Below the pieces are notes generated by a model. That model ran no database searches and was not told the origin of the DNA. It saw only the letters and a list, made by a program, of their open reading frames with translations. DNA of 55,909 nt from Klebsiella pneumoniae (GTDB taxonomy: Bacteria > Pseudomonadota > Gammaproteobacteria > Pseudomonadales > Pseudohongiellaceae), in the NCBI GenBank assembly GCA_945877175.1, contig CAMCRC010000009.1, positions 1 through 55,909 on the forward strand, written 5' to 3'. Position 1 is the first letter of the stretch, and the number at the start of each line of letters is the position of its first letter. The position numbers and the translations under genes were made by a program. Shown here in pieces: positions 14,154 to 29,464 of this stretch.

Positions 14154-16659
<2,506 letters not shown>

Positions 16660-16695: not shown

Positions 16696-17781
16696 TCAAA
16701 CAGGTGTTATTTTACCATGTTCCACGTGGAACTTTCTTGGGCATATGCTTGAAGGCCAGGCGTCATCGAGGTCCGAGGCGTCGACGCAGGTCAAGAATAC
16801 CTGGCTTTCAAGTTTGCAGAGGAGCTCACAAACAAGCTTTCTGTTGTTTTTGTCCAACTCAGATGGGAGATCATCCACAAGAAACAAAACCTTTGTCCCG
16901 GTCAATTCAGACAGCAAAACTCCTTGCGCTATCTTCATTGCGATTACCACGAGCTTTTGCTGACCTCGTGAAAGTATTTCGTCCGCGCGGCTTTTGCCAA
17001 CTCTGATTTGCAGGTCGGCCCTGTGGGGGCCTGTCTGTGTGGCGCCATAACGCACATCTCTTTCCAGAGAGGCGTTGAGAATATCTTTAAGCTCAACCCC
17101 ATCTTCCCAGCCTCGAAAATACTTGACCGCCAAGCCTTGAATGCCTATCAGGCTGGAAAGAGTTTTTTCGAGAGCCGGAAGAAACAGCGCAATGTATCTT
17201 TTGCGAGCACAATCTATCCTGGTCGCATATGTGCAAAGTTCCGCTCCCCAAGCCTCCAATTGTTGCTTATCTAGAGTTCGCTCTTTTAAAAGCAAGTTCC
17301 GTTGCGCGATGCACTTTGCAGCACCTCTCCAGTCTCCGGAGAAGTCATGTTCCACGTGGAACACGCCCCAATCGAGAAACTTGCGCCGAATCTTTGAGCT
17401 ACCCTCAAGAAGATCAAAACTATCGGAATTGAGAAGTTGGAGGGGAAGTTGTCGGGCAGTAGGCAGCCAATTGCTTTGTCGCTCACCCATTAACTTTAGA
17501 ATGTGATTACCCGATCGACTTTTTGTAATGCCAATCGTAGCTCCAGAGAATAACTCGGAAAAAACAGTAATTTCATCTAGACCGGACTGTATAACTGACT
17601 CGACACGCTGACTGCGAAAGGAGCGCCCAAGCCCCATGTAGTAAATTGCCTCCAAAAGGCTGGTTTTGCCACTACCATTAGGGCCAAAGAAGACATTGAC
17701 ACCCTGTCCGGGTAGCACCTGAACATTCGAAAGATTGCGTAAACCGAGTACATCAATCCGTCGAATAGCAGTCATAGTCAC
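16696..17781 (-). CDS. recF: DNA replication and repair protein RecF
   Basis: 361 residues (E. coli 357). RecF is an SMC-like ATPase that helps load RecA at gaps. Walker A is GPNGSGKT (33-40), the family segment DWGVFHVEH spans 137-145, the ABC signature region is LSRGQQKL (about 284-291), and Walker B is VLFLVDDLPSELD. Two ParB-binding parS palindromes lie inside the gene, and each encodes the peptide FHVEH (141-145 and 351-355). dnaN lies 18 bp upstream. Confidence 0.96.
   Translation of the reverse strand: MTMTAIRRIDVLGLRNLSNVQVLPGQGVNVFFGPNGSGKTSLLEAIYYMGLGRSFRSQRVESVIQSGLDEITVFSELFSGATIGITKSRSGNHILKLMGERQSNWLPTARQLPLQLLNSDSFDLLEGSSKIRRKFLDWGVFHVEHDFSGDWRGAAKCIAQRNLLLKERTLDKQQLEAWGAELCTYATRIDCARKRYIALFLPALEKTLSSLIGIQGLAVKYFRGWEDGVELKDILNASLERDVRYGATQTGPHRADLQIRVGKSRADEILSRGQQKLVVIAMKIAQGVLLSELTGTKVLFLVDDLPSELDKNNRKLVCELLCKLESQVFLTCVDASDLDDAWPSSICPRKFHVEHGKITPV
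16718..16733. promoter_or_regulatory. parS: parS site 1 (ParB binding), in the recF 3' end
   Basis: TGTTCCACGTGGAACT is one base from a perfect 16-bp palindrome of the Pseudomonas-type parS, TGTTCCACGTGGAACA. It encodes FHVEH near the C-terminus of RecF. parA and parB are present about 11 kb to the right, and parS clusters near oriC in this group. Confidence 0.88.
17348..17363. promoter_or_regulatory. parS: parS site 2 (ParB binding), inside recF
   Basis: TGTTCCACGTGGAACA is a perfect 16-bp palindrome and an exact Pseudomonas-type parS. It overlaps RecF codons for V-F-H-V-E-H, part of the conserved WGVFHVE segment of the RecF family. It lies about 3.2 kb from the oriC intergenic region. Confidence 0.92.
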
Positions 17782-17799: not shown

Positions 17800-18909
17800 T
17801 CAAAGGCGCATGGGCATTACGACATACAAGGCATCAGCCTTCCCATCAGAGGCCTCGAGCAAGGCGCTGCTATTGGAATCATGAAGAGTGATCTTTACCT
17901 TCTCAGCCGCCAGTACAGTAAGCACATCGACGAGATAGCTGACATTGAAGCCTATCTCCAAGGACTCTCCACGATAGTCTACAGATACCGACTCTTCTGC
18001 CTCTTCCTGATCCGGATTGTTTGCAAGTATTCGAATCTCGCCGTTTGAAAGCAGCAATCGAACGCCCCTGTACTTTTCGTTCGAGAGAATAGATGCCCGC
18101 GAAAACGCCTGCTTAAGCTCTTGTCGATCGCCAATTACGTGTTTGTCCCCGCCCTTGGGAAGCACTCGGTTATAGTCAGGAAACTTGCCGTCCACAAGTT
18201 TCGAAGTGAAGGTAAAATCTTGTGTTTTTGCCTTGACGTGATTACGCCCGAATACCACCGAAACATTCTCTTGGTCACCAGTAAGCAGCCTACCAAGTTC
18301 AATGACACCCTTGCGGGGGAGAATCACCTGGATCGGAGTATCAATTTGCGCCTCAGACTGCATAGTTTGCATTGCGAGTCGATGTCCATCTGTCGCAACG
18401 ACACGAAGATAACCGGCCGACAACTCGAAGAGCATTCCATTCAGGTAATAACGAACATCCTGCTGGGCGATAGCAAATGAAGTGCCATCGAGAAGAGCTT
18501 TGAGAGCACTTTGAGAAAGAGTCAATTCGCAAGTGCCGGGCTCTTCTTCGGTGACAGGAAACTCGGTCGCTGGGAGTGTAGCCAAACTAAACCGACTGCG
18601 CCCTGACTTGATAACCATCTTGTTGTCTTCGACAGAGAACTCCAGCACAGAATCCTCTGAAAGTGACTTGCAAATATCCACAAGCTTTCTTGCTGGAACA
18701 GTGATATCTCCCGGTCGAGACGGGCCGGAGACTACTATCTTTCCAAGAAGCTCCACCTCAAGGTCGGTACCAGTAATGGATAGTTGGGAATTCGCGTCCA
18801 GTGACAACAAAACATTGGACAGAACCGGCAAGGTTTGTCGACGCTCCACAACACCTGTAACCAGTTGAAGAGGTTTGAGAATTGCTTCCCTTGAGGTTGA
18901 AAAATACAT
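17800..18909 (-). CDS. dnaN: DNA polymerase III sliding clamp, beta subunit
   Basis: 369 residues (E. coli 366). The dimeric ring clamp tethers DNA polymerase III and other partners to DNA. The three-domain fold is supported by family segments: the N-terminal LKPLQLVTGVVERRQTLPVL (about 11-30), GTDLEVEL, VVATDGHRLA (about 170-179), ILPRKGVIELGRLL (about 196), KFPDYNRVLPK and the C-terminal YVVMPMRL, which forms the partner-binding pocket. It lies between dnaA (68-bp gap) and recF (18-bp gap) on the same strand. Confidence 0.98.
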   Translation of the reverse strand: MYFSTSREAILKPLQLVTGVVERRQTLPVLSNVLLSLDANSQLSITGTDLEVELLGKIVVSGPSRPGDITVPARKLVDICKSLSEDSVLEFSVEDNKMVIKSGRSRFSLATLPATEFPVTEEEPGTCELTLSQSALKALLDGTSFAIAQQDVRYYLNGMLFELSAGYLRVVATDGHRLAMQTMQSEAQIDTPIQVILPRKGVIELGRLLTGDQENVSVVFGRNHVKAKTQDFTFTSKLVDGKFPDYNRVLPKGGDKHVIGDRQELKQAFSRASILSNEKYRGVRLLLSNGEIRILANNPDQEEAEESVSVDYRGESLEIGFNVSYLVDVLTVLAAEKVKITLHDSNSSALLEASDGKADALYVVMPMRL

Positions 18910-27075: not shown

Positions 27076-27738
27076 ATGGAAGAGACTGGATCACATAACC
27101 GAGCGGAACTACGCAGCGGTATGAATGCCATAGGGCTTTCGTTGAGCGATCATCAGGTCAATCAGCTCGTTGACTATCTTGAATTGCTGCTCAAATGGAA
27201 CAAGACGTTCAATCTTTCTGGAATCAAGGATTCTTCCAGCATGCTATCCAGGCATCTGCTGGACAGCCTGACGCTTGTTCCCATGATTACCGGCCGCTGT
27301 ATTCTTGATGTTGGCACCGGGCCCGGCCTGCCGGGAATACCACTGGCAATTTGCTACCCGGAAAAAACCTTTGTGCTTCTCGACAGCAATGGAAAGAAGA
27401 CTCGGTTTGTCTTTCAAGCCAAGGTGCAACTGGGGCTTGCCAATGTAGAAGTGCGCAATCTTAGAATAGAGAACTTCAAGGAGCCGCTTCCAATAGACAC
27501 TATTGTTACCAGGGCGTTTTCTTCCCTTGTGGATCTGGTGAAGCTCACGCAGCATTTGTTCAAGAGCGGAGCTCAGGACGTGCAGACAAGAATTCTGGCA
27601 ATGAAGGGCGTGCTTCCAGCAGAGGAGCTCGCCCAGCTCCCAGACAACGTAGTGATCGGAAGAGTGGTAAAAGTCAGTGTTCCTGGCTGTGACGGTGAGC
27701 GTCACATCATTGAGCTGCTTGCAAAGAACGCGGAGTAA
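27076..27738 (+). CDS. rsmG: 16S rRNA (guanine-527-N7) methyltransferase RsmG
   Basis: 220 residues from the ATG at 27076 (E. coli 207); a TTG at 27052, overlapping the mnmG stop, would add eight residues and cannot be excluded. It methylates G527 of 16S rRNA. The SAM-binding motif is DVGTGPGLPGIPLAI, preceded by YLELLLKWNKTFNLSGI and RHLLDSL, all characteristic of the GidB family. A VTRAFSSLVDLVKL segment follows. It sits between mnmG and parA, as is usual near gammaproteobacterial origins. Confidence 0.95.
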   Translation: MEETGSHNRAELRSGMNAIGLSLSDHQVNQLVDYLELLLKWNKTFNLSGIKDSSSMLSRHLLDSLTLVPMITGRCILDVGTGPGLPGIPLAICYPEKTFVLLDSNGKKTRFVFQAKVQLGLANVEVRNLRIENFKEPLPIDTIVTRAFSSLVDLVKLTQHLFKSGAQDVQTRILAMKGVLPAEELAQLPDNVVIGRVVKVSVPGCDGERHIIELLAKNAE

Positions 27739-27745
27739 GGACGAA

Positions 27746-28525
27746 TTGGCCAAAGTAATCGCAGTTGCAAATCAGAAGGGTGGTGTTGGTAAAACAACAA
27801 CCTCCGTCAATCTTGCCGCCTCACTGCGCGCCACGAAACGACGTACTCTGCTGATAGATCTTGATCCGCAAGGCAATGCAACGATGGGAAGCGGAATCAA
27901 CAAGGGTGATCTGTCCTTGTCGATTTATGAAGTGCTTATGGGCGAGGCAGTACTGGCGGATGCACTGTTGACTACGGCTGCTGGCGTTGACATCTTGCCG
28001 GCCAATGGTGATCTCACAGCAGCTGAAGTGGCCTTGTTGCAGAGGGATGGATCTGAAGGTCGACTTAAATCCTTGATCGCAGACGTTGCTGACAAATACG
28101 ATTTCATTGTCATAGATTGCCCACCGTCACTCAACATGCTGACTGTAAACGCGCTAGTGGCCGCACACGGCGTGATAATTCCGATGCAGTGTGAGTACTA
28201 TGCGCTGGAAGGGTTGTCGGCATTGGTGGACACTATTCAGGCAATTGCTTCCGCCTTGAATCCTGGTCTGAAGATCGAAGGCATTCTGCGTACAATGTAT
28301 GATCCTCGCAGCAAATTGACCCTGGAAGTCTCCAACCAGTTATTCACACATTTTGGCGACAAGGTCTATCGCACAGTAGTGCCACGAAATATTCGTCTTG
28401 CAGAAGCACCCAGTTATGGCATGCCAGTGCTTCAGTACGACAGACAATCACGTGGTGCAGTAGCTTACCTGGCGTTGGCGGGTGAGATGTTGAGGCGTCA
28501 GGAGCAGGCAGCACTGGCACAGTAA
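27746..28525 (+). CDS. parA: chromosome partitioning ATPase ParA (Soj)
   Basis: 259 residues from a TTG start at 27746, which follows TAAGGA with four-base spacing and gives the family N-terminus AKVIAVANQKGGVGKTTTSVNLAASL. The deviant Walker A is KGGVGKTT (11-18); DLDPQGNATMGSG and VIDCPPSLNMLTVNAL are the other ATPase motifs. ParA forms nucleoid-bound gradients that move ParB-parS complexes. It starts 7 bp after rsmG, and parB follows after 42 bp. Two parS sites lie in recF. Confidence 0.96.
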   Translation: MAKVIAVANQKGGVGKTTTSVNLAASLRATKRRTLLIDLDPQGNATMGSGINKGDLSLSIYEVLMGEAVLADALLTTAAGVDILPANGDLTAAEVALLQRDGSEGRLKSLIADVADKYDFIVIDCPPSLNMLTVNALVAAHGVIIPMQCEYYALEGLSALVDTIQAIASALNPGLKIEGILRTMYDPRSKLTLEVSNQLFTHFGDKVYRTVVPRNIRLAEAPSYGMPVLQYDRQSRGAVAYLALAGEMLRRQEQAALAQ

Positions 28526-28567
28526 GAAGGCATACCCCCCAAAAGAGTTCAGGAAAGTGGAACAAAA

Positions 28568-29464
28568 ATGACGGCCAAGAAAAAATTGGGCAGAGGGCTC
28601 GACGCGCTCCTGAGTGCCAGTAAAAACCAGTCTTCTTCAATCCAGAGCGGATCTGGGGATGCGATGGTGCCTGTTGCAGACAAAGACGGAGAGTTGCGCA
28701 ACATCCCGATAGAATTGATTCAACGAGGCAAATACCAGCCAAGAACAGACATGCATGAAGAGGCTCTTCAGGATCTTGCAAGCTCTATCCGGGCCCAAGG
28801 TGTCATGCAACCCATCGTAGTCCGGCCGATTTCAGATACCCGTTATGAGATAATTGCTGGCGAACGCCGCTGGCGCGCCAGTCAGATTGCCGGCCTCGAC
28901 AAGATCCCCGCAATCATCAAGCCAGTCTCGGACGAGTCTGCCATCGCTATGGCGTTGATTGAAAACATCCAGCGAGAAGATCTCAATCCTATTGAAGAAG
29001 CTATGGCGCTCAAGCGTCTTCAGGAAGAGTTCGAATTGACGCAACAAGAGGTCGCGGATGCCGTTGGCAAGTCGCGAGCCACAGTCACCAATCTCCTCCG
29101 GCTTATTACACTGAATCCTGATGTTCGCTTGATGCTGGAACATGGCGACATCGAAATGGGTCATGCCCGCGCAATGCTAGCCCTCTCTGATTTGAAACAG
29201 ACGGAAGTGGCAAAATTGGTAGCTGGAAAAGGTCTTTCCGTTCGTCAGACCGAGTCATTGGTTCGCAGAATATTGGTAGCTGCACCCGACAAGAAGGCCA
29301 GTGAGCTGGTGAGCGATCCCGATATTCGCAGGCTGGAAGAAAGCCTCTCAGAGACACTTGGGGCTCGAGTCCAGATACAACACACAACCAGAGGGGCTGG
29401 TAAATTGACATTGAAATACAACAGCCTGGATGAGCTGGATGGCATACTGGCTCACATAAAATGA
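28568..29464 (+). CDS. parB: chromosome partitioning protein ParB (Spo0J)
   Basis: 298 residues. The N-terminus KKLGRGLDALL is typical and probably contacts ParA. The CTPase/ParB-N domain includes IPIELIQRGKYQPR, RPISDTRYEIIAGERRWRASQIAGL (boxes I and II, GERR) and LIENIQREDLNPIEEA. The helix-turn-helix is LTQQEVADAVGKSRATVTNLLRL. The C-terminal dimer domain ends IQIQHTTRGAGKLTLKYNSLDELDGILAHI. It is expected to bind the parS sites at 16718 and 17348 and spread by CTP-dependent sliding. ATG follows AGGAAAGTGGA. Confidence 0.97.
   Translation: MTAKKKLGRGLDALLSASKNQSSSIQSGSGDAMVPVADKDGELRNIPIELIQRGKYQPRTDMHEEALQDLASSIRAQGVMQPIVVRPISDTRYEIIAGERRWRASQIAGLDKIPAIIKPVSDESAIAMALIENIQREDLNPIEEAMALKRLQEEFELTQQEVADAVGKSRATVTNLLRLITLNPDVRLMLEHGDIEMGHARAMLALSDLKQTEVAKLVAGKGLSVRQTESLVRRILVAAPDKKASELVSDPDIRRLEESLSETLGARVQIQHTTRGAGKLTLKYNSLDELDGILAHIK

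Follow-up and report, generated by a model that had tools for sequence, protein, structure and literature searches.

Genomic context of the two parS sites

The window, by which we mean the whole stretch of 55,909 nucleotides analysed here, carries dnaA, dnaN, recF and gyrB on its minus strand and a parA-parB pair on its plus strand (Table 1). The assignment of recF follows from a score above the curated TIGR00611 cut-off together with the dnaN-recF-gyrB context. Within its frame lie two sequences that fit the 16-bp palindrome type of chromosomal parS, TGTTYCACGTGRAACA, with 0 and 1 mismatch, respectively, and the internal one, TGTTCCACGTGGAACA, is identical to the Pseudomonas aeruginosa parS2/3 sequence. 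Both are read in the minus-strand recF frame, as GTG TTC CAC GTG GAA CAT (V-FHVEH) at the internal site and as AAG TTC CAC GTG GAA CAT (K-FHVEH) at the C-terminal one. An earlier note on this DNA had described a perfect and a one-mismatch parS, both encoding FHVEH in RecF, and its coordinates and codons are confirmed here.

Table 1. Coordinates of the origin-region genes, the parS sites and parAB in the window
Feature	Position	Strand	Basis and remarks
gyrB	14167..16587	minus	NF011501 / TIGR01059 above cut-off; downstream border of the recF slot
recF	16696..17781	minus	TIGR00611 recf, 323 bits vs cut-off 172; frame holds both parS
parS C-terminal, TGTTCCACGTGGAACT, one terminal mismatch	16718..16733		RecF reads K-F-H-V-E-H, codons 16717-16731
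parS internal, TGTTCCACGTGGAACA	17348..17363		RecF reads V-F-H-V-E-H, codons 17347-17361
dnaN	17800..18909	minus	TIGR00663, 354.9 bits; upstream border of the recF slot
dnaA	18978..20459	minus	TIGR00362, 594 bits; origin-region marker
parA (Soj-type ATPase)	27677..28525, start codon provisional	plus	Best NCBIfam match ParA_partition NF041546, below cut-off
parB, presumed reader of both parS	28568..29464	plus	TIGR00180 parB_part, 202.9 bits vs 58.45

A pattern search of the draft genome, a Pseudomonadales MAG (2,638,866 bases in 126 contigs, 90% complete), found TTCCACGTGGAA only at the two recF sites, the next-nearest parS-like sites having 2 mismatches. When the whole window was shuffled, 1 of 100 shuffles reached two sites that differ from the classical parS at no more than 3 positions, and synonymous-codon shuffles of the window recF yielded two 14-mer parS in 0.095% of 20,000 cases.

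In ParABS systems, ParB dimers load at parS sites by oriC, spread nearby, load SMC and are moved by ParA. Since dnaA marks the origin region, the distance between the two sites and the presumed oriC would be about 3-4 kb, and both fall inside the dnaA-dnaN-recF-gyrB cluster, that is, near the origin as chromosomal parS sites do. The partition genes are on the same chromosome (27677-29464): ParA scores below the cut-off of its best family but is ParA-like and adjacent to parB, and the window ParB shares 55-67% identity with its counterparts in many members of the class. parA directly precedes parB, as it does in P. aeruginosa (PMC3909081). The single mismatch of the C-terminal site is terminal; P. 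aeruginosa parS1 and parS4 still bind with a terminal mismatch, and position 1 of Burkholderia parSc1 is tolerant both in surface plasmon resonance (SPR) and in vivo (PMC5450999), so this site is expected to work as well.

Conservation of the parS codons across the class

In 276 genomes sampled across the class, recF was matched 229 times, and the best 150 of these genes were read; these are the best matches to the window RecF and are thus biased toward similar sequences. The 14-mer GTTYCACGTGRAAC occurs at the internal position in 127 of the 150 genes, at the C-terminal position in 121, at both in 112 and at one or more of the two in 136. Within the genus, the C-terminal AAG TTC CAC GTG GAA CAT is present in all 11 other members whose recF was fetched. 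Genome-wide, the 14-mer is present in exactly two copies in about 165 of the 276 genomes, and the spacing of the two recF sites, commonly about 620 bp, is always a multiple of 3.

The constraint on these stretches acts on the DNA. Among genes with FHV[E/K] at the internal position, 127 of 129 use CAC GTG RAA where the codon usage of the same genes predicts 8.3, and at the C-terminal position 121 of 126 do so (8.9 expected). The codon preceding FHV[E/K] ends in G in every case (129/129 internal, 126/126 C-terminal), and the first base of the fifth codon is invariably C, leaving the residue there free among H, P, Q, R and L. Synonymous shuffles of the 150 genes (200 runs) gave a mean of 16 sites and a maximum of 27, compared with the 248 present, all of which share one reading phase. 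The earlier note had proposed to ask whether the parS bases of related recF genes are conserved beyond codon need, which the codon test and the shuffles answer in the affirmative; relatives whose FHVEH codons break parS, which it named as counter-evidence, are rare (2/129 and 5/126).

Shared ancestry is controlled for by ranking the columns of recF itself, because all of them have an identical history. Of the 172 columns with a common residue, those ranked 1-7 for codon conservation are the seven parS codons, at 95-98%, whereas the next-best column reaches 78% and the median is 36%. Within the site, conservation is 98-100% except at the end positions 1 and 16 and at positions 5 and 12 (Y/R). 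These are the positions at which ParBc1 tolerates change: in SPR with Burkholderia parSc1, whose sequence is that of canonical parS, every symmetric change abolishes binding except at (1-16) and for the transition at (5-12) (PMC5450999).

Two further observations concern the codons. In one genome (G311, locus L207) the usual two are joined by a third 14-mer parS, which falls at codon 10 when the recF frame is counted from stop to stop and is read as VFHVKL. A coupling between the F codon and the E/K codon was considered and dropped, as TTC...AAA and TTT...GAA are the same DNA on opposite strands; the skew of these codons mainly reflects the excess of E over K together with base composition.

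Dependence of the sites on ParB

We examined one order represented by 90 genomes, in 85 of which recF could be read. Chromosomal ParB was missing in 17, comprising 13 without any ParB match and 4 with weak matches only, which were taken as plasmid or other homologues; draft genomes may lack the contigs bearing ParB or the origin. An intact recF site was found in none of the 17 ParB-less genomes and in 54 of the 68 ParB-bearing ones (Fisher p = 8e-10, a value that counts related genomes many times over, the ParB-less families probably being mostly one clade). On a GyrB tree there are 3 independent losses of ParB, and loss of the sites matches in an average of 2.9 of 3 pairings, with 3 pairs being too few to reach significance.

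The RecF proteins of the ParB-less genomes show what remains once the sites are gone. Internally, F-H is kept in 17/17 and is followed by other residues, e.g. FHHHT, FHQYT or FHNES, while the C-terminus keeps F-x-[V/I/M] in 17/17, e.g. FEVNV, FQVDT, FTVEK or FRVEQ. Some of these genomes have what looks like a decayed parS, ATG TTC CGC GTG GAA CAG, with one mismatch. The same is seen inside one genus, where G025, with ParB found, has both sites intact and its congeners G155 and G249, with ParB not found, have decayed sites whose changes include the synonymous CAT and GTA.

The match with ParB has exceptions in both directions. Some ParB-bearing families (f187 and most of f173 and f175) are without an intact recF site, so that placement of parS in recF is not obligatory. 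Five f187 genomes (G329, G349, G367, G383 and G398; e.g. L224, L223) have a C-terminal MFHVEH with CAT for CAC (GTTYCATGTGGAAC), and the same five carry standard parS sites elsewhere. Conversely, three drafts have parS despite no ParB match, inside recF in G113 and G200 and just downstream of it in G114, for which missing contigs may be the explanation.

Paired variants were seen in five genomes. In the ParB-bearing G003 (L013), G022 (L028), G378 (L251) and G148 (L033), both recF sites have exactly one mismatch and the DNA change is identical at both; the same holds for G299 (L200), which lies outside the ParB search. The change is CACATG at both sites in four of the five and CACGTA in one. 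In G003 and G299 the two sites carry it on opposite strands, with the result that V->M is read at one of them and only the H codon changes, CAC->CAT, at the other. The recF pair constitutes the only GTTYCACRTRRAAC matches genome-wide in G003, G022, G148 and G299. In these genomes parS and ParB may have co-evolved, or the variant may be weak but tolerated, its origin being helped by C-to-T mutation at the central CpG.

Sites in genomes without recF

Loss of recF, which accounts for 7 changes on an unrooted tree, separates the site from its host gene. We collected the genomes that have parS and no recF match, regardless of where the parS lies (n=23). In 21 of them the site or sites are in the dnaN-gyrB gap, and in a 22nd (G100) a parS array stands just before gyrB, with dnaN outside the stretch read. 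Near gyrB, 13 of these recF-less genomes have two sites, 8 have one, and one has an array of 12. These intergenic sites resemble those of the window in having the identical 14-mer in the identical chromosomal slot, and differ in the lack of recF and in the pairs being usually 25-106 bp apart rather than about 620 bp.

Individual arrangements vary. The array of G100 (L171, 1287-1773) has its 12 parS at a 43-bp period. In G174 (L164, 1501-2236), the dnaN-gyrB gap holds two parS at a distance of 722 bp, flanked by inverted copies of one stretch (ATAGTTTTC...), and a RecF profile found no recF remnant in this 0.9-kb gap. G114 (L166, 470-1552) has a recF without parS and a parS pair directly downstream of it, before gyrB. 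The bases of the site are thus conserved apart from the gene that carries them, as seen in the codon test, in their retention without recF and, in one order, in their loss without ParB.

These results bear on whether something other than segregation keeps the palindrome, such as an mRNA hairpin, effects on translation or a factor regulating the dnaN-recF-gyrB operon. Excess ParB in P. aeruginosa does lower the expression of genes starting with PA0003 (recF), an effect ascribed by the authors to parS1/2, but in the same species the genes beside the intragenic parS1/2 are unchanged when ParB or parS is absent (PMC5521831), and the sites there serve segregation (PMC4368675). We consider a reader of this kind very unlikely, because the sites are still present, now non-coding, between dnaN and gyrB after recF is lost, disappear along with ParB, and vary in the way that the tolerance profile of ParB predicts.

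Requirements of RecF and origin of the two copies

If RecF itself needed FHVEH at both places, the resemblance to parS would be a by-product of the peptide. A part of the peptide does appear to be a need of RecF, since F-H internally and F-x-[V/I/M] at the C-terminus persist without ParB. But the synonymous codons are fixed as well, the fifth residue may be any of H, P, Q, R or L provided that its codon starts with C, V-E-H is lost in ParB-less genomes, and 22 genomes retain parS beside gyrB with no recF at all. Moreover, the RecF of the solved structure 5z67 reads LDACISVIDKNY at the place where the window has LDWGVFHVEHDF, and among 397 genomes sampled from the phylum, 52 inside the class and 0 outside it have the internal site within its WG context, as judged with a pattern that covers the internal site only and is narrow enough to miss some class members too. 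FHVEH is therefore not a general RecF motif, and a protein-driven origin of the sites seems extremely improbable to us.

From these comparisons, RecF itself would require only F-H internally and F-x-hydrophobic C-terminally. The suggestion in the earlier note that parS uses a codon stretch already tolerated by RecF thus holds for these short anchors, whereas the remaining FHVEH residues, lost without ParB, would be imposed by the centromere. Likewise, the WGVFHVE segment that it regarded as a conserved feature of the family would be conserved because of parS, and not vice versa.

From the FHVEH shared by both window sites, the same note proposed that the internal pentapeptide was recruited to give the C-terminal copy. 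This is scarcely credible, given that the 60-bp flanks of the two sites are identical at 12/60 and 13/60 positions, i.e. at chance level, that the C-terminal F-x-V anchor exists without parS, that both sites co-occur in 112/150 recF genes, and that the phase alone forces the identity, since a parS placed in this reading phase can encode nothing but F-H-V-[E/K]-x. The data are better explained by two independent settlements, each site on its own pre-existing RecF anchor, than by copying.

Interpretation

We conclude that the two sites are, very probably, the working chromosomal centromere of the window bacterium, embedded in recF. ParB binding and segregation function are here carried over from P. 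aeruginosa, for which alone in vivo binding of parS and its need in segregation are known (PMC5098823, PMC4368675). With both sites in the RecF frame, selection for binding by ParB would fix the parS bases as NNG TTY CAC GTG RAA CNN in that frame, and as parS fills five codons, this would settle both the codon choice and most of the amino acids, F-H-V-(E/K)-(H/Q/P/R/L). The centromere, acting through its DNA, would in this way dictate a peptide of RecF, and the low demand of RecF at these places (F-H; F-x-hydrophobic) is presumably why parS could settle there.

Extended to the class, the comparisons make it likely that in most Gammaproteobacteria the centromere consists wholly or mainly of two fixed recF parS sites that have dictated two RecF pentapeptides over the history of the class. 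On this reading, ParB loss would let the peptides decay to near-parS forms, e.g. FRVEQ in Enterobacteriaceae-like genomes, while recF loss would leave the sites in their slot.

The locus would then be a clean natural example of a DNA element for chromosome maintenance that determines residues of a protein unrelated to it and survives the loss of its host gene. It is also a warning that FHVEH in RecF should not be taken for a catalytic or binding motif, and it suggests the recF codons as a simple genomic read-out of the presence of ParABS. Two questions follow, namely why the class keeps its centromere in the dnaN-gyrB slot, and how ParB spreading affects the replication-initiation genes.

Comparison with known systems

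Two parS in recF are not new in themselves, being already known in P. aeruginosa. A search for literature on parS together with recF, with dnaN/gyrB or intergenic locations, or with synonymous selection returned only P. aeruginosa and a Caulobacter hot spot, subscription papers being mostly outside its reach, and an earlier description of the class-wide pattern is possible. In Caulobacter crescentus, the recF-gyrB region is reported as a hot spot at which additional parS insertions are tolerated, the native sites being elsewhere (PMC5815017), and this may be relevant to the preference for the slot.

P. aeruginosa is the closest parallel. Its nearest parS lies about 4 kb from oriC, in recF (PMC3909081), and parS1/parS2 are located within that gene (PMC5521831), so that, like the window, it has two recF sites about 4 kb from oriC with parAB at about 7 kb in the opposite direction (PMC3909081, PMC5521831), and the same 16-mers, TGTTCCACGTGGAACC/A. 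In vivo, all of parS1-4 are occupied by ParB (PMC5098823), and any one of the four suffices for segregation; mutated parS1 and parS3 bind ParB less well, the parS1 changes having been designed as silent (PMC4368675). By our reading, the silent mutations TaTTtCAtGTaGAgCC and TGTTtCAtGTaGAgCA (PMC4368675) fit the frame F-H-V-E-x. The other Pseudomonadales read have VFHVEP/VFHVEQ and MFHVEH/LFHVEQ. Unlike the window, P. aeruginosa has two more high-affinity sites, parS3 and parS4, outside recF, whereas in the draft genome of the window no parS besides the recF pair is perfect or near-perfect.

Intragenic parS sites as such are familiar. The parS of Bacillus subtilis lies inside spo0J. In P. aeruginosa, 9/10 parS sites are intragenic (PMC4368675). 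The window resembles both in having a ParB site embedded in coding sequence. What distinguishes it from these other intragenic parS is that the same two codon stretches of recF are used across most of the class, and thus the site would govern a protein motif on a deep time scale.
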